Shown here: one piece after another, positions 43,848 through 55,094 of the stretch | Layout of the letters: each line of letters opens with the position of its first letter | Position numbering within the stretch: position 1 is the stretch's first letter | Source of the DNA: Celeribacter litoreus | Lineage (GTDB): Bacteria > Pseudomonadota > Alphaproteobacteria > Rhodobacterales > Rhodobacteraceae | Assembly (NCBI RefSeq): GCF_020165855.1 | Contig: NZ_JAIUFY010000008.1 | Span: forward strand, 310,001 to 374,000 | Length of the DNA: 64,000 nucleotides | Reading direction: 5' to 3' | Made by a program: the position numbers and the translations under genes | Notes under the pieces: generated by a model | What the model saw: only the letters and a program-made list of their open reading frames with translations | The model's database searches: none | Told to the model about the DNA's origin: nothing

Positions 43848-44417
43848 ATGACCAAAGACGCATTGAGCGCCATCACGCGCCGTGGACTACTCCGCGGTTT
43901 TGCAGCCACAGCGATCAGCGCAGCACCAGTCTATGCAAACGCCGCAGGGTTCCTGCGTGGTTCCGGCGACGTTCGCCGCATTCGCATGTATTCGGGACGC
44001 ACGGGTGAGAGCCTTGACACCATCTATTGGGTCGAAGGCAAATACATCCCCGAAGCCCTGAAAGAAGTCACTTACTTCATGCGCGACTGGCGCAATTCCA
44101 AGATGAAATCGATCGACGCACGTACCGTCGATATCATGGCCGCTTCGCACCGCCTGATGGATGTGGATGAGCCCTATATGCTTCTCTCCGGCTACCGCTC
44201 TCCGGAAACCAATGCGATGCTGCGCTCCCGGTCTTCGGGTGTCGCGAAGAACTCTCTCCACATGCAGGGCCAGGCCGCAGACCTGCGCCTTAAATCCCGT
44301 TCTGTGAGCCAGATGGCACAAGCCGCACAATCCTGTTCCGCAGGTGGCGTCGGACGCTACTTCGGCTCCAACTTTGTGCACATGGATTGCGGCCCGGTTC
44401 GCACTTGGCGCGGATAA
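43848..44417 (+). CDS. DUF882/MepK-like murein endopeptidase
   Basis: The 189-residue protein begins with a twin-arginine-type export signal (TRRGLLRGFAATAISAAPVYANA). It continues with a DUF882 domain related to M15 peptidases. Metal ligands are visible in SLHMQGQAADLRL (His and Asp) and NFVHMDCGPVRTW (His). E. coli MepK (YcbK) cleaves 3-3 cross-links between diaminopimelate residues and is encoded next to the LdtD gene ycbB. The same pairing here supports the assignment. A terminator follows. Confidence 0.88.
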   Translation: MTKDALSAITRRGLLRGFAATAISAAPVYANAAGFLRGSGDVRRIRMYSGRTGESLDTIYWVEGKYIPEALKEVTYFMRDWRNSKMKSIDARTVDIMAASHRLMDVDEPYMLLSGYRSPETNAMLRSRSSGVAKNSLHMQGQAADLRLKSRSVSQMAQAAQSCSAGGVGRYFGSNFVHMDCGPVRTWRG

Positions 44418-44454
44418 TCGGCGCCTCCCCAGATTTAGACAAAGAGCAGTCGCA

Positions 44455-44480
44455 AAAGCCGCCCAACGAGGCGGTTTTTG
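44455..44480 (+). terminator. Rho-independent terminator after the endopeptidase gene
   Basis: CCGCC pairs with GGCGG (44459-44463 with 44470-44474, loop CAACGA), extended by flanking A and T runs. Confidence 0.85.
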
Positions 44481-44590
44481 TTTGTCTGTCGCGCGTTTGG
44501 CGTTGACCTGCGTTCCCGGGCTTTACCGTCGCGTGGACTGGGTGTTAGCACTTGAAACAACACCCGCATCTCATTTCAGAGGACCCGCAT

Positions 44591-44938
44591 ATGAAACGTG
44601 CTATCGCACTTGGCTGTCTCGCCCTCACTTTGGCCGCTTGCAGCGAGCCGATTACACCCGCCGGAGAAGTTGTGATCACTGAAGGCGATATCATCAACGG
44701 CCAACGCTTTCGAATGATCAAGCCTCTGACGCTTATCGTTTCGGGTCCGCAAGGGGGAATGACGCCGCCGACCGAAGAACAGGCAAAAGATCGGCTGCGC
44801 CAAGAGGCAAAGTTCTACGATGCAGGTGCGGTGACGCGCGTGATGATCAGCGTCCCCTATCTCTGTGCAGAGGCCACCTATTGCCGCCGCGCGGAAGGGC
44901 TATCCGTCGACTTTCCGGACGGGCCTGTTGGACAGTGA
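44591..44938 (+). CDS. Small lipoprotein
   Basis: The 115-residue protein has a lipoprotein signal with lipobox LAAC near residues 14-17 (MKRAIALGCLALTLAACSEP). The mature part is mixed, with ITEGDIINGQRFRMIKPLT and two further cysteines (YLCAEATYCRR). I do not recognise a family. GAGGA lies seven bases before the ATG. Terminators on both sides make it monocistronic. It is convergent with the phosphatase gene. Confidence 0.75.
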   Translation: MKRAIALGCLALTLAACSEPITPAGEVVITEGDIINGQRFRMIKPLTLIVSGPQGGMTPPTEEQAKDRLRQEAKFYDAGAVTRVMISVPYLCAEATYCRRAEGLSVDFPDGPVGQ

Positions 44939-44959
44939 AGATCCAATACATTCGAAAAA

Positions 44960-44994
44960 AAAGAACGCGCAGACGAACCTCTGCGCGTTTTTCT
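44960..44994. terminator. Bidirectional terminator between the lipoprotein and phosphatase genes
   Basis: A perfect 10-bp stem AACGCGCAGA/TCTGCGCGTT (44964-44973 with 44980-44989) has A-rich sequence on its left and T-rich on its right. It can stop transcription from both sides, including the seven-gene minus-strand operon. Confidence 0.85.
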
Positions 44995-45013
44995 GTTTGA
45001 ATGTCAGACAGAT

Positions 45014-45568
45014 TTAGCCGAGCAGGCTCGGGATCCCGTAGCGCTCTTCCATAAAGGACCGGCGACGTGGCGCACCCCATTTGAGAGTGCGCAGGAACTC
45101 CATCTGCTCTTCACTCTCGATCCAGACCGGATTGCGGCGCTTTGTCAGACTGATGGCGTCCTCGTTCGAGGCCCCTTTGTAAATGAGCATGCAGGCCAAA
45201 AGCGTCCCTGTCCGCCCCTTCCCTGCCCGACAATGGAACGCAGTCGGCATCCCCTCTTTCAACAGCCCGTCCACCTGTTCGCACAGCGCGCGCGCTTCAT
45301 CTGCGCTCGGGGCACATTGGTCAGGGATCGGGAGATAGATGCTCTTGAGGCCATGCCCTTCGATGGCTTCGGTTAGCGGCTCTTTTTCTTCGGTGAGGGT
45401 CACGAGAACCTTGATTCCAACGCGGGACAACGCCTCAAGATCCAAAGCTGGATCCTGAAGCAAACCAGGTTGCGGACAACCGGCGAGCAGACCTTGCTCC
45501 AGCCACTCAAAATCGCGCGGGCCATAATAAGAGGACAGGAAGGACGGACGTGCATAGTTTCGAAACAC
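45014..45568 (-). CDS. Dual-specificity/tyrosine-type protein phosphatase, last gene of dynamin operon
   Basis: The 184-residue protein has the cysteine phosphatase signature HCRAGKGRTG with nucleophile C113 and arginine R119. A candidate general-acid Asp lies in IPDQCAPSADE (D83). It belongs to the PTP/dual-specificity superfamily; the substrate could be phosphoprotein, phosphoinositide-like lipid or nucleotide. The GTG at 45568 is chosen because GAGGA lies seven bases upstream and it follows the ABC stop by 23 bases. A longer GTG frame from 45631 would overlap that gene and lacks a site. Its place at the end of the operon suggests it resets or signals for the upstream proteins. Confidence 0.85.
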   Translation of the reverse strand: MFRNYARPSFLSSYYGPRDFEWLEQGLLAGCPQPGLLQDPALDLEALSRVGIKVLVTLTEEKEPLTEAIEGHGLKSIYLPIPDQCAPSADEARALCEQVDGLLKEGMPTAFHCRAGKGRTGTLLACMLIYKGASNEDAISLTKRRNPVWIESEEQMEFLRTLKWGAPRRRSFMEERYGIPSLLG

Positions 45569-45591
45569 GGAAAAATCCTCAAAAAATCTTT

Positions 45592-46689
45592 TCAGTTCAG
45601 TTCCATCGCAAGGCGCAGGTCCAGATCCCACAAGAACGGCTCGATCCCGAGATCCGCCAAACTGCTCTTCTGGTTCACAGCCTCACCGGCTTTGTCCGGC
45701 GCAACACCCAGACACACTAACAAAGCTCCCAACAAGCGCGGGGCGAACTCACTCATTCGTCGATTTCTCAGAAGGACCGTGTGTTTCTTCGCGATCTCAT
45801 CTGCGATGTCTTTTGCGATCGTAATGATCGACTCGTCATCCAACGGTGCGTCAGCCATGAGGGTCGCGGTTCCGGATGTGCGCTTCAGACAACGGTCTGT
45901 CAGCTCATATTCCGTGTCCGCTTGCCAGAGGCAACATACGCACTCACTCTCATCGGCATACCAGAATTTATTCGGAATAATCCACCCGCAATTCCCAGGG
46001 GGAAGGATATTCTCGCCAATACCGTCCGGAAGGCCACGAAGGCTCGGATCAAGTGCATGAATTTCAGCATCTTCACGCGCGATGATGAGGCCGTTCGTTT
46101 TACGGAAATGCTCAATCTCCGGACCTGAGTCGCCGGACAAGAAAGCGGCCGCATTGCAATGCGCGAGAACACGCCCTGCCCCAAGAAGGATAACGCCGGA
46201 CCAAGAAGATGAAATCAGGTTCATCTGATGGGTTGCCATCAGGACCAGACGTTCTTTTGCCAGCTCCAGAAGAACGGCCATCATCTCGCTGCACTCGTCG
46301 TCCCAGAGACCTGCGGTCGGCTCATCGACGCAAAGCACCTGTCCCGGAACCTGAATGTAATCTTTGAGAAGCGACAGTCGGAAATTCGCAAGATCGCGAG
46401 AACTTTCCGCATCGTTTGCAGCCTCGCGCGGTCGCTGTGCGAACAGGGCAACACGATTTTCGGCACCAAGCGGCGCACCTTTGCAATCCGCTTTCAAAAA
46501 ATCTGCTGTGAGGTTGTAATGCTCGAGATGCCCCGCAAGAAAGCGGAACAATGTGGACTTTCCACTGCCCATCGGACCAATGAATCCGACAAGACCGCGT
46601 TCCGGCAGATTGAGCGAAACATCCGACAGGATTGTCCGGTCCACGGTGTAGACGTTCAATCCAGAGAGTTCGATTCCAGAAACAGACAT
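45592..46689 (-). CDS. ABC-type ATPase lacking the signature helical region
   Basis: The 365-residue protein has an ABC core: Walker A GPMGSGKST at 38-46, a Q-loop glutamine at 85, Walker B VLCVDEPTAG with D122/E123, and an H-loop histidine at 154 (MATHQM). Walker A and B are only ~77 residues apart, against ~115 in usual transporters. No LSGGQ is seen, so the helical subdomain is missing or very short. After about residue 175 comes an unfamiliar domain with three cysteines (ESECVCC) and several conserved-looking acidic stretches. No membrane spans are present or encoded nearby, so it is not a standard transporter. It overlaps the 238-residue gene by one base (TGATG). Confidence 0.75.
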   Translation of the reverse strand: MSVSGIELSGLNVYTVDRTILSDVSLNLPERGLVGFIGPMGSGKSTLFRFLAGHLEHYNLTADFLKADCKGAPLGAENRVALFAQRPREAANDAESSRDLANFRLSLLKDYIQVPGQVLCVDEPTAGLWDDECSEMMAVLLELAKERLVLMATHQMNLISSSWSGVILLGAGRVLAHCNAAAFLSGDSGPEIEHFRKTNGLIIAREDAEIHALDPSLRGLPDGIGENILPPGNCGWIIPNKFWYADESECVCCLWQADTEYELTDRCLKRTSGTATLMADAPLDDESIITIAKDIADEIAKKHTVLLRNRRMSEFAPRLLGALLVCLGVAPDKAGEAVNQKSSLADLGIEPFLWDLDLRLAMELN

Positions 46690-47405
46690 CAGTCCTTCAA
46701 CACATCCATCAAAAAGCGACCGATGTGCGCCGGTCTGAATTCACTTCGTTCATCTTTTTGCCCACCGATCGACAGGCCGAGAGAATCCTCGCTCGGATCA
46801 ACAGGGTTCCAGACCCCAATGATATGCCCGCCCATCTTCTTATGGAGATGTTGGAGCAAAGCCATCTGTGGGTCGTCAGAATCGAGTGGTTCAGTCACGT
46901 CACTCGGTTCTTCGTTAGGCGCAGCCGCCGCCGATGAGATCGGAACCACCTGATCCTGTGTGAGCACCAGAGGTTCAGAGTCAGACTTCGTCCCAAGAAC
47001 GGCGTCAACGGAAAACCCGTCTTCGCTGCCAATATCATCCTCGTAATCCTCGAACTCCTGCTTCAGGTCGCTGGAATGATTGAGAAAGTCGAGAATCTGG
47101 CCTCGCAACTTTGCTGCAAAACCGGGTTTATCCTTGTTTGAAGTCAAAACAGTCTTCTCTTCTGAAGGCATCGTTTCATCGGCATCATCATACCGAAGCC
47201 CGACCACGCGTTGACCTGCTGCAATGATGCCCAGCCGACCGTTGGTCCCCACCACCCAGATTACCTGAGGGAGAACGGATCTTCCAACGGATTGCATAAG
47301 CACTTTGAGCTTTTCTTCCGCAGGGAGAGTCCCGTCTATGTGATGACGCACCGTGGCCCCGAGAGAGGACCCAAGCACATCAGGAACAGCGACCAGCGTA
47401 GTCAT
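46689..47405 (-). CDS. Uncharacterised 238-residue protein of the dynamin operon
   Basis: An N-terminal folded part (about 1-75) contains LPQVIWVVGTNGRLGIIAAG and GLRYDD. A middle acidic region (about 120-180) is low in hydrophobic residues and probably disordered. A C-terminal part (about 182-238) has QMALLQHLHKKMGGHIIGVWNP and LGLSIGG. I recognise no family and no catalytic motif. The acidic linker between two small domains suggests an adaptor that could connect the Roadblock-like protein and the ATPase encoded on either side. It follows the Roadblock-like gene by 66 bases. Confidence 0.7.
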   Translation of the reverse strand: MTTLVAVPDVLGSSLGATVRHHIDGTLPAEEKLKVLMQSVGRSVLPQVIWVVGTNGRLGIIAAGQRVVGLRYDDADETMPSEEKTVLTSNKDKPGFAAKLRGQILDFLNHSSDLKQEFEDYEDDIGSEDGFSVDAVLGTKSDSEPLVLTQDQVVPISSAAAAPNEEPSDVTEPLDSDDPQMALLQHLHKKMGGHIIGVWNPVDPSEDSLGLSIGGQKDERSEFRPAHIGRFLMDVLKD

Positions 47406-47471
47406 CTTAACCCATCATAGGACGTTTCGGCGGGCATCAAGGACGCCCGCCGAAAATTTTCATTCAGAAAC

Positions 47472-47876
47472 TCAGAGAGCGTCTGCGAGCGGTGCAACGG
47501 CCATACGGGACTTTGCGAGAACCATGCCAACGTTCGCGCTCTTGTTGCAGACGAAGCAAATTGCGTGCTCAGGGTATTTTTTGGAACGCATGAACACGTG
47601 CAGGAGGTTCTCGGAGAACACGAGGAATTCCTGGAAGTAGTAGTGCTTGTCAGCCGGGTTGCCGCGAGACTTGTTGAAGGAGTTCTCGATGTGGCGCACG
47701 GTCGGGCCGTCAAAGAGGTCTGCGGTAGCTGCTGCAACCATGTCGAGCACTTCTTGCGGGTGGGAGTCGAGCGTCTTCACAGCGAGAAGCATCCCGGAGG
47801 ACATGTCAACATAACCACCTGCGAGGCAGTCAGGGATGGATTTCATAGCTTCCTGAAGAGCTTTATCAAGCGACAT
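47472..47876 (-). CDS. Roadblock/LC7-like protein
   Basis: The 134-residue protein has the layout of the Roadblock/LC7 (MglB) fold. An initial helix (LDKALQEAMKSI) is followed by two strands (CLAGGYVDMSSGMLLAVKT), a long helix (QEVLDMVAAATADLFDG), and strands (YFQEFLVFSENLLHVFMRS, EHAICFVCNKSANVGMVLA). Such proteins commonly dimerise and regulate small GTPases, as MglB does for MglA. The assignment is from pattern only. It has a strong AAGGA site, and the GTPase gene 29 bases upstream offers an obvious partner. Confidence 0.65.
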   Translation of the reverse strand: MSLDKALQEAMKSIPDCLAGGYVDMSSGMLLAVKTLDSHPQEVLDMVAAATADLFDGPTVRHIENSFNKSRGNPADKHYYFQEFLVFSENLLHVFMRSKKYPEHAICFVCNKSANVGMVLAKSRMAVAPLADAL

Positions 47877-47905
47877 TTGCGTTCCTTTACGTATTTTGTC
47901 AGTTT

Positions 47906-49072
47906 TTATGGGGTTTTGTGGGGAAGATACGAGAAACAGAACCGATCTCGTAATTCTAAGGCGAGGATGACGGCAATCATGTCGTCGGCCTCACGGTTGG
48001 ACAAAAGGCGTTGCGCCTTTTTAAAGCTACGCGCCAATGGCAAGTATATGGCCGTATGTGATGGAATGACAGAGATAATTCCATCTAGGCGCGCTTTGAT
48101 CTCGGTGTGAAGTGTTCCCGCAGGAACATGTTTCACATCGGCATAAAGTTCCTGAATGACGCGGAATTCCTCGGCCCAGGCGTGGGCGATGGCGGGCGCG
48201 TCTTTGAGGATATAGGGTTTATGTGCGGCAGGTGCCGGTCGTGCCACTTCGGGAGCGGCCTGCACCGGTGCGGGCGCTGGCTCAGTCTCAGGTGCCGGAA
48301 CAACTTGAGCAATCGGGGCAGACGGAACGGCCTGAATTGTTGGGGCCGGCTCATACCCCTCCCGAATCTCGACAATCCGCTTCTGGACGAGATCGAACAG
48401 TTTCGCACCGCCCGCGGTCTCCCAGACATCGTCATCCGACGCGCCTTTGATAACGCGCGCGCTCGTGTCGACGAGCACAAGCTGCTTGAAGAATTCAGAA
48501 GACAAATCCCCCACCCGCGCAACAACGCGCGAGCGAGCGGCTTCATCGAGATAGTCTGCCCGATTGATCACCAAGATCGATTTGTCGAGGATGTCGCGGC
48601 GGATCCCTTCGATGATGTGGATTTCGCTGAGGCACCACGCGCGCTGCGCCATCGTGCACCAGATAATAAAATCGGCCTCATCAATTGCAGCGGCCGCCTG
48701 ATCCGTCAGCGTGCCGTTTTCACTCACCGAAACTTCGGTCAGCACGACATCCGAAAAATCTGCAGTCGGAGCGACAGTCGACACTTCGTCCGTCTCACGC
48801 ATTTGCGTAACCCGGATCGGCATCGCCGAAACCTTTTCCCAATCAGATCCGCCACGGACCGACAGCGACGTCGTCCCCTGCAATTGATCTGTATCGAGCA
48901 ACTCTACATGCAGCGGCGGAACATTCGACGGCTCCAGCGTGCTTTCGAGAAGATTCCGGCGAAGGAGCAGATTCACAAGCGCGGATTTACCGGAATTGAA
49001 CTCCCCGACAACCGCCACACGGACGGGATTTCTCTCGTCCATTGTAAATTCACGCTTAAGAACACTTACCAT
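47906..49072 (-). CDS. Dynamin-related small GTPase with Pro/Ala-rich linker
   Basis: The 388-residue protein opens with a GTPase domain: G1 GEFNSGKSALVNLLL at 23-37 and G4 NRAD at 170-173, with the following ARV...SSEFF and DTSAR region. The usual DxxG (G3) is not evident (TEVSVSENG occupies its place), so hydrolysis may be weak or depend on a partner. A Pro/Ala/Glu-rich linker (about 243-290) joins a C-terminal helical domain (about 291-388: HAWAEEFRVIQELYADVKHV). The G1 motif resembles the GxxxSGKS of dynamin-like proteins. It starts 28 bases after the 727-residue gene; an alternative start is ten codons downstream (49042). Confidence 0.78.
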   Translation of the reverse strand: MVSVLKREFTMDERNPVRVAVVGEFNSGKSALVNLLLRRNLLESTLEPSNVPPLHVELLDTDQLQGTTSLSVRGGSDWEKVSAMPIRVTQMRETDEVSTVAPTADFSDVVLTEVSVSENGTLTDQAAAAIDEADFIIWCTMAQRAWCLSEIHIIEGIRRDILDKSILVINRADYLDEAARSRVVARVGDLSSEFFKQLVLVDTSARVIKGASDDDVWETAGGAKLFDLVQKRIVEIREGYEPAPTIQAVPSAPIAQVVPAPETEPAPAPVQAAPEVARPAPAAHKPYILKDAPAIAHAWAEEFRVIQELYADVKHVPAGTLHTEIKARLDGIISVIPSHTAIYLPLARSFKKAQRLLSNREADDMIAVILALELRDRFCFSYLPHKTP

Positions 49073-49100
49073 TAGTCAACTGTCCACAACATCAAAAGAC

Positions 49101-51284
49101 TCAGGTCTCTCTCGACCTGATTGTAGTCACGCTTTCCTGCTTAAGGCGAGCCACTGTTTTACCCGAAAGTGTTTCCGGGAACTGACGGGCCAAAGTCGAT
49201 TTCGCTGCTTCGATTTCCTCAGCACATTCAACAAACCACTGCGCACGCGCGTTACGCTCGTCGTAGATCTGTTTTACACGCTCACGCGCATCGCCCTTGT
49301 TCAGCTTTTCCAAATCGGTCGCAAGTGCACGACCTTCGGACCCGAGAAGGTTCGATGCCGTATGCAGGATGCTCTGAAGACGCTGCATCCCCTCTGCGTT
49401 CCGTTTCGCGATCGCATCAACGGCAGTTGCGCGGAGCTCAGCTTCTGCAGACTTCACCTCGGAGGACACCATACGCTTCAGACGCTCAGCAGCCTCTTCA
49501 GCGCTCATGCTCTTCTTCTGCCAGAACTTCCAGCCACGATCGACTTTGAATTCCATCTCGATGAGCAGAGAGCGCGGTTTGAAGCTCGGGAACACCATAT
49601 CGAAGGGCATATTCCGCAGAAGACCACCAAGCGACATTTCACCCACAAAGGGAGCCACACGTTCGTTCATCTGATCAGCATGGCGCTCCAGCGTCATATC
49701 GACGTGCGCGCGACCAAGCTGGTAGGCTTTCGACACTTGCAACTCGACGCGACGGCAGAACGGCTCGATGTTCACAATCCAGGAGCCATCGGCATTGCCG
49801 TCGTCAAACGCGTCACGCAGTTCATCTGCCTGCATGTCCACGAATTCGGAGATCGCGACATCGATTGCGGTCTGGATACGGCCATTGACGTTTTCGCCGT
49901 TCTTCAGGATTTCGGCATGCGCCTGATCCTGAATTGCCTGCAGTTCGACGAGAGCGCCTTCAATCTGCTCGAGACGCGCACCAATGCGTTTGCGTTCCAT
50001 ATCAGCAATTTGCGGGATGTCGTTCGCGTCAACAAGGTTGCGACCTTCACGCTCTGCACGCTCGTTCAGAATGTTCACCAAGAGCTCGAACGCTGCGTAG
50101 ATCTCCGTCGCGGCCTTCCGGATCGCGCCGTCGATCGGACCTTCTTCGATCAGGCTGGAGATACAGTTGGCAAGCTCGGGCATGCCGGATGCGCGATAGA
50201 GACGCGCGCGCGGAGACAGAGACATGTCCTCGCCACCGGTTGCGGCCATGTAGTTCTTGTAAGACGTCGACTCAAGCGCCTTCGCCACATCCTCATCCGA
50301 ACCAGTCGCAGCAAGGCGACCCCAGTATGCACTCCCAGTCATCAAGATGATGTTGGACTTCTTCAACTCATCAGACAGTCGTTTCTGCAACGCCGGCAAA
50401 AGCTCTTTCTCGACGAGCGACGGATCTTCGAGTTCGTCGATCCGGTTGACGTAAACGATGGTTTTCTTCGTCGTGTGCGTCGCCAGCATTTTCAGGAGCG
50501 CAACGTCCGCCGGCCCGAGTGGCTGGTGCACGGAGATCGCAGAGATGAAGACATCCGCTTCTTTGAAGCTGGAGGTCGTCAGAGCGTCGCGAACGAGGAA
50601 CGGGTCGTTGATGCCGGGCGTATCAGACAGAGTGACGGGAACGCGGAAGGCCTCTGGCGGGAGGAACACGTCTGCCGCTTTCGTGATACCGGAGAAGCGG
50701 CCAGCGCTTTTCTCATCCACGTCCACATCGCCATAACCGGCGGAAACGTAGCGTTCGAGAATTTCCGGTGTCACTTCGCTAAAGCGGTGCTTTTTGCCAA
50801 GAAGCAGGTGGTAGAGCGACCCGAGACGTTTCTTTGCGCTCTCCTGCATGTCGCGAATTTGCTGTTCGAGAACTTCGGATTTGAAGCCAGGCAACAGCTG
50901 CTCTGCGAGCTCACGGCTTTCTTTGTCGCCCTCGATCATCTGTTTCCACTCTTCTTCACTGAAGAGTTCGAATACAGCACCGGCATCCGGTTTGTCCGGA
51001 TGGCCGAAATGGAGGTTGGTGATGACGGCGGTCCAGGGGTTCACCTCGGTCGGGAGAAAATCACCCAGACCGGAGATCGCGTTGATCAAAGAACTTTTAC
51101 CCGACTTCACCTGACCAACGACACTCACGGTCGTGCCCGTCTCGCTCAGGAGCTTTACAGCTTTTTCGAGTATCTCGTTGAATTCCGTGATCTCGTTGTT
51201 CTTGAGCGCCACGGAATACACGAGAGACGCGAGGTCCCCGATACGGGCTTCCGTATTCTGACCGATGGGTTGGATCTCAAACAT
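49101..51284 (-). CDS. Dynamin-family GTPase (727 residues)
   Basis: The protein has a complete dynamin-type GTPase domain: G1 GQVKSGKSSL at 57-66, G2 threonine in NPWTAVIT (81-88), G3 DTPGINDP at 221-228 and G4 NRID at 280-283. A long helical stalk (about 370-727) follows, with coiled-coil-like stretches. In it lies a hydrophobic/aromatic patch (about 555-600: LGGLLRNMPFDMVFP then RGWKFWQKK) that could serve as a membrane-binding paddle. Bacterial dynamins bind and reshape membranes and are often encoded in pairs; the neighbour upstream is the second. The ATG at 51284 is 131 bases after the upstream gene. Confidence 0.88.
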   Translation of the reverse strand: MFEIQPIGQNTEARIGDLASLVYSVALKNNEITEFNEILEKAVKLLSETGTTVSVVGQVKSGKSSLINAISGLGDFLPTEVNPWTAVITNLHFGHPDKPDAGAVFELFSEEEWKQMIEGDKESRELAEQLLPGFKSEVLEQQIRDMQESAKKRLGSLYHLLLGKKHRFSEVTPEILERYVSAGYGDVDVDEKSAGRFSGITKAADVFLPPEAFRVPVTLSDTPGINDPFLVRDALTTSSFKEADVFISAISVHQPLGPADVALLKMLATHTTKKTIVYVNRIDELEDPSLVEKELLPALQKRLSDELKKSNIILMTGSAYWGRLAATGSDEDVAKALESTSYKNYMAATGGEDMSLSPRARLYRASGMPELANCISSLIEEGPIDGAIRKAATEIYAAFELLVNILNERAEREGRNLVDANDIPQIADMERKRIGARLEQIEGALVELQAIQDQAHAEILKNGENVNGRIQTAIDVAISEFVDMQADELRDAFDDGNADGSWIVNIEPFCRRVELQVSKAYQLGRAHVDMTLERHADQMNERVAPFVGEMSLGGLLRNMPFDMVFPSFKPRSLLIEMEFKVDRGWKFWQKKSMSAEEAAERLKRMVSSEVKSAEAELRATAVDAIAKRNAEGMQRLQSILHTASNLLGSEGRALATDLEKLNKGDARERVKQIYDERNARAQWFVECAEEIEAAKSTLARQFPETLSGKTVARLKQESVTTIRSRET

Positions 51285-51415
51285 TGGTTTTCTAACCTTT
51301 ATACGGTGGAGCCATGAATTCCCGAGGCTACTCTGTGCGCTCTGTTGCGGCTCAATAAGAAGAAGGGCTGATGTTCAAACGTGCCTTCGATGTTTCGTCT
51401 TAATCTTCAATTCGC

Positions 51416-53254
51416 TCATCCAGCGGCCCTCACCTCAGAGAACTCACCGGTCTCATCATACCCGGACCAATCGGCCCCAATCTGATCGAGAACATGGCGC
51501 TTCGCCTGCTCGAGATAAGCTTCAAGCGCACGCTCTGCCTCTTCCATCCCAAAGCTCAGCGCACCGCCACGAAGACCAATGGTCATCTTACGGACGTGCT
51601 TGTTTGCCTCGGTTTCGAGGAACTTCTGGAGGCGTTCCGCCTTTTTCTTCTTGCTCAGCCATGGGCGCACGCAAGACGATGGAACAGTCAGCATGATCTC
51701 GGTGCCATTGGTCGGAGCACGTTCAAGCGCAGCAACGGGCGGCACTTTTAGATCAAAGGTGCAGGCATTCGCACTGTCGGCGGCTTCGAGGAACACGTCG
51801 AGCTCACGCTCGAACTTGCCCGCAACGTTCTTGAGGCTCCGGAAGGCAGCAGCATTGAACCAGCCCGTGAGCGCAGACACCCGCATATAGAAGGGATCAA
51901 ACGATTTGATGAATTTGATCGGCTCTTTGCGGCTGACTTCATCAGTCATATGCGCATCGACGAGGGCGGTCGCATAGCGCTCGGAATAATCGGCAACCAT
52001 CTTTGTGAACTCGTCACGGCGCTCTTCCATCTCAACTGTAAAGTCGGCACGCAAGCGCAGGAAAAGATGATTGAAAAACTTGTCGAGCTCATCGAAATCG
52101 ACCTTCGCACCGGACTCACGGGACTCACGACCATCTTCAAGCGCGGTCAGGATCGCAGTGCAGTCTTTCATCAGGTTCTCGACGAATTTCTCACCCTGAC
52201 GCTCCACAACATCATCAACGAGCGCCTTAACGAGATCGGCTACCCCGTTGCTCAGATCACCTTGCACCGCGTCGTTGAGAACGGCAGAGAGTTCGGTGTC
52301 CTCAGTCTGGGCAGCGGACTCGCAGCCGATGCTGCCGAAGTAAATCGGAAGGGTTTTGTCGAGACCCGCCTCTTCAAGCTGCGACCGAAGCGTCTCTTCG
52401 AGCGCGGCGGTATCGACATTCTCGGAACAGTTCACGAACAAGAAGACCATCCGTGACGGAGACCGCAGAATCTTCAGACACGCGATGTCAACCGACGTGA
52501 GCAAATCCTGAGCCGTCGTGATGAGAACGCTCGTTTGGGCACTCCGCATCATGGTCACGGAAAGGCGCTCGCCAATCGGGTCATTTGATAGGCCGGGTGT
52601 GTCGACGAGCGCGAGGCGCCACGGAACCCAAGGCGCCGAAAGGTAGATATCTGCCTCGACCGGATGGCGGTTTTCGTGCTGAGCCGCACCGCCGAGAACG
52701 ATCTCGTCGTAGAACGCTTTGTCTTTGCGGCTTTGGTAAACACGCTCGGGACGGACCTCCGAAACGGACTCCGCAACCCAATTGTCTTTAACGTCCTTCA
52801 TGATCTGTGCGGTCTCGAACCGAAGATCCTCGCGCTGGCTACGACGACCGATCTGGTCTGCACTGCGAGCTAGGCGATCCCAGTCTTTTCCGGAGAAATA
52901 CTGAACTTTCGCGGGGACATCATCCGCACCGGACCGAATGTTCAAACACACGTTCACGGGGATGGCTGTCGAACTGCCCTCACCCACAGGCAAAAGCCCC
53001 GGACGACCGGACATGGCATTCACGAGCGATGTCTTCCCGACACCGGAACGACCGAAGATCGCGATCTTCGGACGGTATTGCTCGATCCGAGTGAGTGTTT
53101 CAGCGGCTTTGAGTGAGGAAAAGGCATCAGAAAGTTGCGAGATGTCCGTCAAGACATCACGGATCTCCTCTTGTTGCTCCTTAATAGATCTCATCGCAGC
53201 GAATGAGCCGGGGAAAACAACTTGAGGTTGCCCTGCCGTGGAAATGGACGTCAA
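51416..53254 (-). CDS. Dynamin-like GTPase (612 residues), first gene of the operon
   Basis: The GTPase domain has G1 GRSGVGKTSLVNA at 68-80, a G2 candidate threonine in GSSTAIPV (about 96) and G3 DTPGLSNDP at 218-226. The G4 position reads FVNCSENVD (about 273-281) instead of N/TKxD, so base specificity may be altered. The rest (about 330-612) is helical, with an aromatic patch FDPFYMRVSALTGWF and a basic KKKK stretch that could touch membrane. The start is a TTG with GGAG eight bases upstream; the next ATG, 20 codons in, lacks a site. It pairs with the 727-residue protein, like other two-component bacterial dynamins. Confidence 0.82.
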   Translation of the reverse strand: MTSISTAGQPQVVFPGSFAAMRSIKEQQEEIRDVLTDISQLSDAFSSLKAAETLTRIEQYRPKIAIFGRSGVGKTSLVNAMSGRPGLLPVGEGSSTAIPVNVCLNIRSGADDVPAKVQYFSGKDWDRLARSADQIGRRSQREDLRFETAQIMKDVKDNWVAESVSEVRPERVYQSRKDKAFYDEIVLGGAAQHENRHPVEADIYLSAPWVPWRLALVDTPGLSNDPIGERLSVTMMRSAQTSVLITTAQDLLTSVDIACLKILRSPSRMVFLFVNCSENVDTAALEETLRSQLEEAGLDKTLPIYFGSIGCESAAQTEDTELSAVLNDAVQGDLSNGVADLVKALVDDVVERQGEKFVENLMKDCTAILTALEDGRESRESGAKVDFDELDKFFNHLFLRLRADFTVEMEERRDEFTKMVADYSERYATALVDAHMTDEVSRKEPIKFIKSFDPFYMRVSALTGWFNAAAFRSLKNVAGKFERELDVFLEAADSANACTFDLKVPPVAALERAPTNGTEIMLTVPSSCVRPWLSKKKKAERLQKFLETEANKHVRKMTIGLRGGALSFGMEEAERALEAYLEQAKRHVLDQIGADWSGYDETGEFSEVRAAG

Positions 53255-53729
53255 TATTTCCGCTCCAAAGGTTTAGCGGCGCATGGAAACACGTGAACCC
53301 GGAACCAACACATTCGCGCCACATAGATTAGTATTTCCTCATCCTAATCATGGCCTGACACAAATGGCAAAAGTAAGGCAACATTACCTTTTATTTATGG
53401 TTAACCTGCCACACTTTTGAAGCATTCCCTCCCCTCAGCCCAGCACCTTAACTTGAAAAAAACAATATGTTTCTGCGCCTTAGACGCGCAACATTTGCTC
53501 CGGCACGCAGCGCAACGCCGTGTTGCGCAAATAAAGGCATTTCAGAGATGTTTGCGCTAGCGCACAAAATGGACGAAAGAATCGGAGTGGGAACTGTTAA
53601 AAAAATACACAGTGAGCTGAAATATGCGCCACGTGTTTATGCTGCGTCCGCATTCCAAATGCAGAGAACAACATAGCGCCGAGCGTGCGCAACCCTAGGG
53701 GTTTTGCTGATATCAGGGAGTTTGGAAAA
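53255..53729. other. AT-rich spacer between the dynamin operon and tRNA-Arg
   Basis: No gene is supported. The sequence is richer in A/T than its surroundings. It contains ATGGTTAA (53397-53404; its complement TTAACCAT is the known CtrA half-site), an inverted repeat GCGCAACA/TGTTGCGC (53486-53493 with 53521-53528) and the palindrome TGCGCTAGCGCA (53553-53564). The promoter for the seven-gene operon must lie here; no convincing -35/-10 pair was found. Confidence 0.6.
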
Positions 53730-53806
<77 letters not shown>

Positions 53807-53833
53807 GCATGCGCCTGTCTATAGGCGATGGCT

Positions 53834-53865
53834 GCGGGGCGTGCAAACTGTTTTCCACGCCCCGC
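53834..53865 (-). terminator. Strong hairpin between sufS and tRNA-Arg
   Basis: A perfect 10-bp stem GCGGGGCGTG/CACGCCCCGC (53834-53843 with 53856-53865, loop of 12) lies 11 bases beyond the sufS stop. No T-run follows, so it may be a processing or mRNA-end-protecting structure rather than a classic terminator. Confidence 0.55.
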
Positions 53866-53876
53866 CCAAAGGATGA

Positions 53877-55094
53877 TTATCCGAAAAACTCGCGGCAAAG
53901 TTCGAGAGCATCGATCAGGCGGTCAACTTCGTCCGTCGTGTTATACATGGCAAAAGACGCCCGGCAGGTTGCCGTCACCCCGAGGTGCTCCATGAGCGGC
54001 ATGGCACAATGGCTCCCTGCCCGCACGGCCACGCCCTTTTTGTCGAGAACGGTGGAAATATCGTGGGGGTGCGCGCCTTCCATGGTAAAGGAGAAAATCG
54101 CGCCTTTATCCGCGGTGGTCCCCTGAACCGACAGCCAGTTGAGGTTCTGAAGCCGGTCTGCCGCATAGGCCGCAAGCGTCGCCTCATGCGCCGCGATGTT
54201 CTCCATCCCGATGTCCATGAGGTAATCGAGCGCAACGCCCATCCCGATCGTTTGAACGATACCCGGCGTGCCGGCCTCGAACTTGAGCGGCGGCTTGGCG
54301 TAGGTAATGGCGTCGCGGGTCACAGTGTCGATCATGTCACCACCACCGAGGAACGGACGCATCTCGGCCTGACGTTCCGAACGGATGTAGATCGCGCCGG
54401 AGCCGGACGGACCGTAGAGCTTGTGCCCCGTGATCGGATAGAAGTCGCACCCGATGTCCTGAACATCCACCGGACCATGCACCGCACCCTGAGACCCGTC
54501 CACAAGCGACGCAATCCCGCGTTCGCGCGCGGCAGCACAGATCGCCTTTACATCGACACGGGTGCCAGTGACGTTCGACATCTGCGTGATCGCTACGAGT
54601 TTGGTTTTCGGCCCCATCGCGTCAATCACCGCCTGCGGATCGAGCGATCCGTCAGCGCCACACTCGACCCACTTGAGCACGACACCCTGACGTTCGCGCA
54701 GGAAGTGCCACGGCACAATATTGGCGTGGTGTTCGAGCACAGAGAGAACGATCTCGTCACCTGCCGAGAGATGCTCCGCAGCCCAGGCATAGGACACGAG
54801 GTTGATCGCCTCCGTGGTGCCGGAGGTGAAAATGATCTCGTCCTCATGGCCTGCATTCAGGAACCGCGCGACCTTGGCCCGCACGCTCTCATACTTGTCG
54901 GTCGCAAGGTTAGAAAGGTAGTGCAACCCTCTATGCACGTTAGCATATTCCTGAGAATAGGCCTGCGTGATTGCATCGATCACCACCTGCGGCTTTTGCG
55001 CCGAGGCACCGTTATCGAGATAGGTGAGCGGGTTTCCGTTGATCTCGCGCGACAGGATCGGGAAATCGGATCGGATTTTTTGAACGTCGAACAT
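53877..55094 (-). CDS. sufS: Cysteine desulfurase SufS
   Basis: The 405-residue group II desulfurase supplies persulfide sulfur to the SufBCD scaffold. It has TYLDNGASAQKPQ, the GTTEAINLVSYAW cofactor loop, the PLP lysine in ITGHKLYGPSGSGAIYI and the catalytic Cys in RAGSHCAMPLMEHLGV. It begins one base after the Yip1-like gene. A second desulfurase of IscS type is encoded at the head of the same operon. Neither sufE nor sufU lies next to it; the NifU-like gene at 4.2 kb is a possible partner. Confidence 0.96.
   Translation of the reverse strand: MFDVQKIRSDFPILSREINGNPLTYLDNGASAQKPQVVIDAITQAYSQEYANVHRGLHYLSNLATDKYESVRAKVARFLNAGHEDEIIFTSGTTEAINLVSYAWAAEHLSAGDEIVLSVLEHHANIVPWHFLRERQGVVLKWVECGADGSLDPQAVIDAMGPKTKLVAITQMSNVTGTRVDVKAICAAARERGIASLVDGSQGAVHGPVDVQDIGCDFYPITGHKLYGPSGSGAIYIRSERQAEMRPFLGGGDMIDTVTRDAITYAKPPLKFEAGTPGIVQTIGMGVALDYLMDIGMENIAAHEATLAAYAADRLQNLNWLSVQGTTADKGAIFSFTMEGAHPHDISTVLDKKGVAVRAGSHCAMPLMEHLGVTATCRASFAMYNTTDEVDRLIDALELCREFFG

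Follow-up and report, generated by a model that had tools for sequence, protein, structure and literature searches.

Dynamin-type GTPases encoded with a predicted Roadblock protein and an ATPase/phosphatase pair in an operon of Celeribacter litoreus

What would bring dynamins, a Roadblock-like protein, an ABC-like ATPase and a phosphatase together in one bacterial operon? The question is raised by a locus of the alphaproteobacterium Celeribacter litoreus (contig NZ_JAIUFY010000008.1, positions 310,001 to 374,000), analysed here as a window of 64,000 nucleotides (nt), in which seven consecutive open reading frames (ORFs) of the minus strand form a tight operon at 45014-53254. In order of transcription they encode DynA, DynB, GtpC, RobD, E238, AbcF and PtpG, with spacings of 131, 28, 29 and 66 nt followed by overlaps of 1 and 40 nt. 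An earlier, sequence-only reading had given gaps of 23-131 nt or overlaps; the larger value and the overlaps hold, while the smallest gap is 28 nt. That reading knew of no described system with this set, and we likewise found none in the open PubMed Central (PMC) papers searched. The answer that we prefer, with a probability of about 0.47, is that the operon is a cytoplasmic GTPase switch in which a Roadblock/phosphatase module controls dynamin-type GTPases.

Products of the operon

RobD (134 amino acids, aa; 47472..47876, minus strand, as for all seven genes) is a divergent Roadblock/LC7 protein for which the MglB/Roadblock fold is predicted. Its model consists of a helix, two strands, a helix, three strands and a helix, the arrangement by which Roadblock/LC7 proteins are recognised, and it matches the MglB/Roadblock fold, including chains of Ragulator, which backs the earlier guess that this protein is Roadblock-like. 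Neither RobD nor the neighbouring E238 gave a Pfam match (RobD none at E 1), and the PF03259 (Robl_LC7) profile found nothing across the genome of 3.66 Mb. E238 (238 aa; 46689..47405) belongs to a fast-changing family that adjoins RobD and whose members share 10-24% identity. Its C-terminus (residues 165-238) shows a possible partial Roadblock/longin-like fold, a weak resemblance which we do not claim.

AbcF (365 aa; 45592..46689) joins, as judged from its sequence, an ABC-like ATPase to a phosphatase domain that lacks the active-site motif, and PtpG (205 aa; 45014..45631) is the copy in which the phosphatase motif is intact. AbcF matches ABC_tran in Pfam (30.3 bits), and in a motif scan it has Walker A, Walker B and the H-loop. 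Of the two marks of a transporter ATPase, LSGGQ is absent from AbcF, as the sequence-only reading had noticed, and a permease partner is absent from the operon. In its cluster of 65 proteins the only LSGGQ-type signature is that of L127_5, which looks like an ordinary ABC protein and was drawn in by similarity. PtpG matches PTP-SAK (Pfam, 81.6 bits), has the active site HCRAGKGRT at residue 133, in agreement with the HCx5R[T/S] pattern of dual-specificity (DSP) and tyrosine phosphatases, and is DUSP23-like by sequence (structure 2img, E 1e-16). Outside Alphaproteobacteria ATPase and phosphatase are often a single protein of about 450 aa, and Pfam finds ABC_tran plus a DSP phosphatase in the one fused protein scanned. 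Cx5R is kept in 51 of the 54 cluster members of at least 420 aa, the remaining three being alphaproteobacterial AbcF proteins, and in the window, as in most alphaproteobacterial relatives, ATPase and phosphatase are two proteins. Seven alphaproteobacterial AbcF proteins, that of the window among them, have C-termini that align with the fused phosphatases (99.4%, E 2e-21) and also with proteins of the PtpG type (98.0%), while eight controls all stay below 3%; a Pfam phosphatase remnant is found in the C-terminus of one relative (L066, E 0.0038) and not in that of another (L062). Since these C-termini align with phosphatases and have all lost Cx5R, AbcF is by sequence an ATPase carrying a dead phosphatase domain (about residues 195-365), which the sequence-only reading had overlooked. 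Two very long myxobacterial proteins (L077:6256-9903 and L101:4114-10005) end in an ATPase-phosphatase and have an uncharacterised N-terminal half.

The first three products are assigned to the dynamin-type GTPases, all above the Dynamin_N cut-off of 27 bits in Pfam: DynA (612 aa, TTG start; 51416..53254) with 45.5 bits, DynB (727 aa; 49101..51284) with 59.3 and GtpC (388 aa; 47906..49072) with 33.7. G1 and DTPG are both present in DynA and DynB, in DynA as G1 GRSGVGKT and G3 DTPG together with an odd G4-like VNCSE, and GtpC has G1 and no DxPG. The identities proposed earlier for the dynamins, the ABC ATPase and the phosphatase are therefore borne out by Pfam and motifs, except that GtpC had been named only as a third GTPase; a GTPase it is, but because it lies above the Dynamin_N cut-off it is itself of dynamin type. 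DynB is 46% identical to the dynamin adjoining RobD in a related locus (L054), and among PDB structures its sequence matches 5owv best (a GTP-binding protein, E 1e-7), followed by 2j68 (a bacterial dynamin-like protein). Among the NCBIfam matches listed for the operon no model exceeded its cut-off.

A recurring core with different GTPase neighbours

A pattern-led scan of genome contigs with five RobD sequences yielded 133 relatives, the best 80 of which, 54-70% identical to the window's RobD, were kept. By record titles they come from Rhodobacterales, Myxococcota, Gammaproteobacteria (including Stenotrophomonas, Marinobacter and Halospina), Betaproteobacteria (Gallionella, Acidovorax) and one planctomycete. 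Their neighbourhoods show that RobD and the ATPase/phosphatase pair recur together across phyla. Within 3 kb of RobD an ATPase is present in 69 of the 80 loci and a phosphatase also in 69; among the 67 loci that extend at least 2.6 kb to either side, 61 carry at least one of the two, and where such a domain lies on the same strand the nearest is within 200 nt of RobD in 60 of 73 loci. All 73 phosphatase matches in 1.37 Mb fall within 3 kb of RobD and none was found in 21 comparison loci, two of which (L041 and L049) are contigs of RobD loci that also lack it (L067 and L088). The parts are also fused in relatives: GtpC, PtpG and RobD in one frame of 615 aa (L064), PtpG and RobD in 378 aa (L105), and GtpC followed by a Rob13-type Roadblock in 467 aa (L040). 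Each part was confirmed by profiles, in draft assemblies where frame errors are possible, and such fusions are usually a sign of parts with a joint function.

Six families (Dyn, Gtp, Rob, E, Abc and Ptp) occur together in seven other alphaproteobacterial loci (L055, L058, L059, L060, L061, L063 and L066), out of 13 RobD loci with a dynamin, and we therefore take it that the gene arrangement is not due to chance. The co-occurrence that the sequence-only reading had put forward for checking was thus seen for six of its seven families, and no second locus with exactly seven genes, two of them dynamins, was found among the loci compared. The order is Ptp-Rob-E-Abc-Dyn-Gtp in six of the seven loci and Dyn-Dyn-Gtp-Rob-E-Abc-Ptp in the window, and Rob-E-Abc is common to the window and eight of the 13 dynamin loci.

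The GTPase beside this core differs between groups. Dynamin and GtpC-type genes were found in 13 of the 80 loci, all of them among the 17 alphaproteobacterial ones. One family of Ras-like GTPases is present in 17 loci, all among the 39 that are neither alphaproteobacterial nor titled Myxococcota (0 of 24 in the latter), and no RobD locus carries both a dynamin and a Ras-like GTPase. Another Ras/Arf-like family occurs in six of the 24 Myxococcota-titled loci, once on the opposite strand and about 4.6 kb away (L071); of two members scanned, one passes Pfam Arf (25.3 bits, cut-off 22.3) and the other matches nothing. In five Myxococcota loci (L074, L075, L079, L109 and L111) the Ras/Arf-like GTPase near RobD has a long C-terminal extension. 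In a tree of 47 RobD proteins, from which the dynamin-linked L088 and L105 were left out, 12 dynamin-linked members lie on one side together with L053, which is cut off at a contig end, and L122; the branch support of 93/99 is just under the line of 95, and the dynamin label needs three changes on the tree, not one.

A rival view, which we regard as doubtful, is that the operon is a membrane-remodelling machine, in which paired DynA and DynB bend, tether or repair the inner membrane, with the remaining five genes serving only to regulate them. It is favoured by the three Dynamin_N proteins, by the dynamin-like structure among the best matches of DynB and by relatives with up to three dynamin genes per locus (L062, L088 and L105), and also by reports that bacterial dynamin genes mostly come as operon pairs, with such a pair tethering membranes (PMC6104087), and that mycobacterial IniA mediates fission (PMC6715688). 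However, no clear membrane segment was found in any of the seven proteins by 19-residue Kyte-Doolittle hydropathy means (highest 1.6 in AbcF, 1.14-1.29 in the other six), in these loci dynamins accompany the cross-phylum core in Alphaproteobacteria only, and Escherichia coli RdcA, whose sequence is related to the Dyn profile, has been described as soluble and acting in signalling (PMC6510439). For these reasons membrane fission or vesicle formation, the first of the roles listed in the earlier reading, is not supported as the leading one.

A sister type of locus was seen in a sample of 20 family loci hand-picked from DynA matches. Eleven of them carry FHA, PP2C, dynamin, GtpC-type and Roadblock-type genes, nine of these 11 also a serine/threonine (Ser/Thr) kinase, and the E profile matches seven of the 11 weakly (24-76 bits). 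In one locus Pfam confirmed the kinase and FHA, and PP2C was recognised through an NCBIfam model, though below its cut-off (148 bits against 230), and NCBI names on a Ruegeria plasmid include four "dynamin family proteins", a kinase, FHA and PP2C. Since the sister type carries kinase, FHA and PP2C, the dynamin/GtpC/Roadblock set is combined with two different phosphorylation modules. No description of such kinase-FHA-PP2C-dynamin-Roadblock clusters was found in the PMC papers searched. Two Rhodobacterales clusters of kinase, FHA, PP2C, dynamin, GTPase and Roadblock genes lie at L043:5962-16278 and L165:11161-26678, some with periplasmic binding proteins.

A possible input is suggested by a protein (about 520 aa) that combines a 2Fe-2S domain with FAD/NAD reductase and bacterial globin domains, as seen by Pfam in the one member scanned. 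It is encoded near RobD in 36 of the 80 loci and ends in a cysteine-rich C-terminus (e.g. L093:11022-12614). What relatives sense may be redox state, oxygen or nitric oxide, and in the window the input may be absent or come from elsewhere. One locus (L125:6855-13646) combines two Ras-like GTPases, two Rob9-type and one Rob13-type Roadblock proteins, RobD, an ATPase-phosphatase and a reductase-globin.

A proposed switch and the case against it

MglB and Rag-linked Roadblock proteins are known to act on GTPases (PMC4316618). Their example, together with a relative in which RobD, GtpC and PtpG form one fusion, is why RobD too is taken to work on a GTPase. RobD dimers would bind GtpC and/or the dynamins at the G domain and control which nucleotide these hold, in the manner of MglB with MglA. 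PtpG would take phosphate off a partner or off the GTPases themselves, AbcF would hold or gate PtpG and its substrate through its ATP state and dead phosphatase domain, and E238 may act as an adaptor. Once released, the dynamins would form assemblies whose target may be a membrane or a signalling enzyme. In other groups the GTPase, where one was found beside the core, is Ras-like or Arf-like, and the dynamins probably replaced this client in Rhodobacterales.

More broadly, and somewhat short of even odds, these loci may represent a new signalling family: a GTPase client, exchanged in evolution, would be controlled by a cryptic Roadblock together with an ATPase/phosphatase pair. We propose equally tentatively that the clients would be Ras-like in Gamma- and Betaproteobacteria, other Ras/Arf-like GTPases in some Myxococcota and dynamin-type in Rhodobacterales; with the same reserve, the phosphorylation input would also be exchangeable, being either a DSP phosphatase or a Ser/Thr kinase-FHA-PP2C set.

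A number of observations count against the switch. No kinase is found among the operon's genes, and, lacking DxPG and the signature motif respectively, GtpC or AbcF could be inactive. Roadblock folds are also found in proteins other than GTPase regulators, and the Roadblock support from sequence for RobD comes from profile comparisons only, hhalign giving 73.7% (moderate) against one Roadblock profile and 22.9% (weak) against another. With the profiles used, 40 of the 63 non-alphaproteobacterial loci gave no GTPase in the neighbourhood of RobD; a GTPase client may therefore not be general, and client replacement is the weakest step. Both ATPase and phosphatase are absent in six of the 67 well-covered loci (L067, L086, L090, L114, L115 and L122), several of the 80 loci come from one genome, and the six-frame search of the neighbourhoods used profiles derived from these very loci, which their members match by construction. 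Finally, the reductase-globin gene was not found in the window's genome, where only generic matches of 26-28% identity occur; the window's set may therefore be a reduced version.

The genes around the operon bear on its origin. We take the flanking genes, named by reading their sequences, to be DUF882-like and SufS, and a tRNA-Arg (CCG; 53730..53806, minus strand) lies just upstream of the operon, adjoining the SufS-like gene. At the other end a terminator-like hairpin with a T-run (44964..44989, minus strand) lies 3' of PtpG; it is a consensus match only, and such matches are overall near chance (12 observed, 9.9 expected). Both flanking genes have homologues in all 20 genus genomes, the window's included, and RobD only in the window's own. 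The flanking genes are 9.5 kb apart here, 3.1-4.4 kb in four of the 19 others (G296, G305, G306 and G310), and farther apart or on separate contigs in the rest. Eight genus regions were taken for comparison; the tRNA adjoins the SufS-like gene in all six that hold it, and the ORFs, read in three, include a cytochrome-like pair (L166), a large membrane protein (L167) and an antiporter-like gene (L171), named by reading. The site between the DUF882-like gene and tRNA-Arg/SufS-like gene (43848-55094 in the window) thus varies in content across species of the genus. The operon's G+C of 0.553 is below that of all 74 same-size windows sampled leftward (0.565-0.605), the right flank having 0.581. Because RobD is patchy in the genus, the site variable and the G+C low, the operon is accessory and probably acquired. 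Only the window's own genome passed RobD E 1e-15 in a sample of 289 genomes of the class, and 80 of 394 of the family passed E 1e-3, 15 of them, the window's own included, at E <1e-40. The nearest RobD relatives are Rhodobacteraceae records.

The varying site content could mean that unrelated accessory genes had simply gathered beside the tRNA, but the same families recur in the same neighbourhoods of other genera, and with fusions, which in the main refutes such a chance cluster and leaves it a very small probability. The same patchiness, variable site beside a tRNA and low G+C would also suit an anti-phage or conflict system, in which infection alters phosphorylation or redox state and RobD/PtpG free the dynamins to block the phage or kill the cell. 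Weak PADLOC matches (LeoA to DynB, 1e-7; mad3 to AbcF, 4e-10) and a sister-type kinase nearest to antiphage MADS6 (127.5 bits, cut-off 460) point the same way. We nevertheless consider it unlikely, since no PADLOC match of the seven operon proteins to the 2023 library resembles a full system, RobD matched none of 50,697 phage records at E 1e-3, and the pattern-led scan of viral contigs gave one relative. This lone relative, on an IMG/VR contig (L175:3001-3396), is 51% identical and has no partner-gene match within 3 kb.

Known systems and what the operon would mean

The switch resembles several known designs in part. With MglA/MglB of Myxococcus and Thermus the operon shares an MglB-fold Roadblock encoded with GTPases, and its relatives share a small Ras-like GTPase near RobD in the 17 loci; the window itself has dynamin-type GTPases only, with no small single-domain Ras-like partner, adds AbcF, PtpG and E238, and has no response regulator or motility gene. 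Ragulator/Rag of eukaryotes likewise joins a Roadblock scaffold to GTPases, and RobD's model matches its chains, but there is no Rag-type GTPase in the window and the analogy is one of design only. Bacterial dynamin pairs (PMC6104087, PMC6715688), such as Campylobacter DLP1/DLP2 and IniA/IniC, share the two adjacent dynamin genes and differ from the operon in that it has no clear predicted membrane segment and has Roadblock and phosphatase partners. In its conservons (cvn; PMC4316618), Streptomyces has a Roadblock and a GTPase in a single operon, whereas the window has dynamins, AbcF and PtpG in place of a sensor histidine kinase. HGbRL of Methylacidiphilum (PMC4476040) is a haem globin-Roadblock fusion, comparable to the reductase-globin near RobD in relatives and without a counterpart in the window's genome.

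Among the systems looked at, E. coli RdcA/RdcB is the nearest worked-out analogue for the output: a dynamin-type GTPase and a small cytosolic partner from one operon form a soluble switch (PMC6510439), with no phosphatase or ATPase. A further candidate is a unit controlling a second-messenger enzyme or some other enzyme, in the way that RdcA/RdcB activates the diguanylate cyclase DgcE, supported by that soluble switch and by the relation of RdcA to the Dyn profile (hhalign 98.4%). It is rather improbable, as RdcB, used as a single sequence, shows no relation to RobD or E (hhalign about 0.2% against either profile, and no hidden Markov model match to RobD's) and Pfam finds no diguanylate cyclase in the operon.

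Each domain family of the operon is already known; what may be new is the set, the split into a live and a dead phosphatase and the possible swap of the client, none of which was found in the PMC papers searched. To our knowledge the switching on and off of bacterial dynamins is poorly known, and if the GTPase switch is true we know of no earlier case of dynamins under Roadblock control. RobD, kept at 54-70% identity across phyla, missed by Pfam, and in relatives fused with a phosphatase and a dynamin-type GTPase, offers a testable handle. If true, the switch would join two GTPase worlds, control of the MglA/Rag type and dynamins, and would suggest functions for families now annotated as hypothetical.

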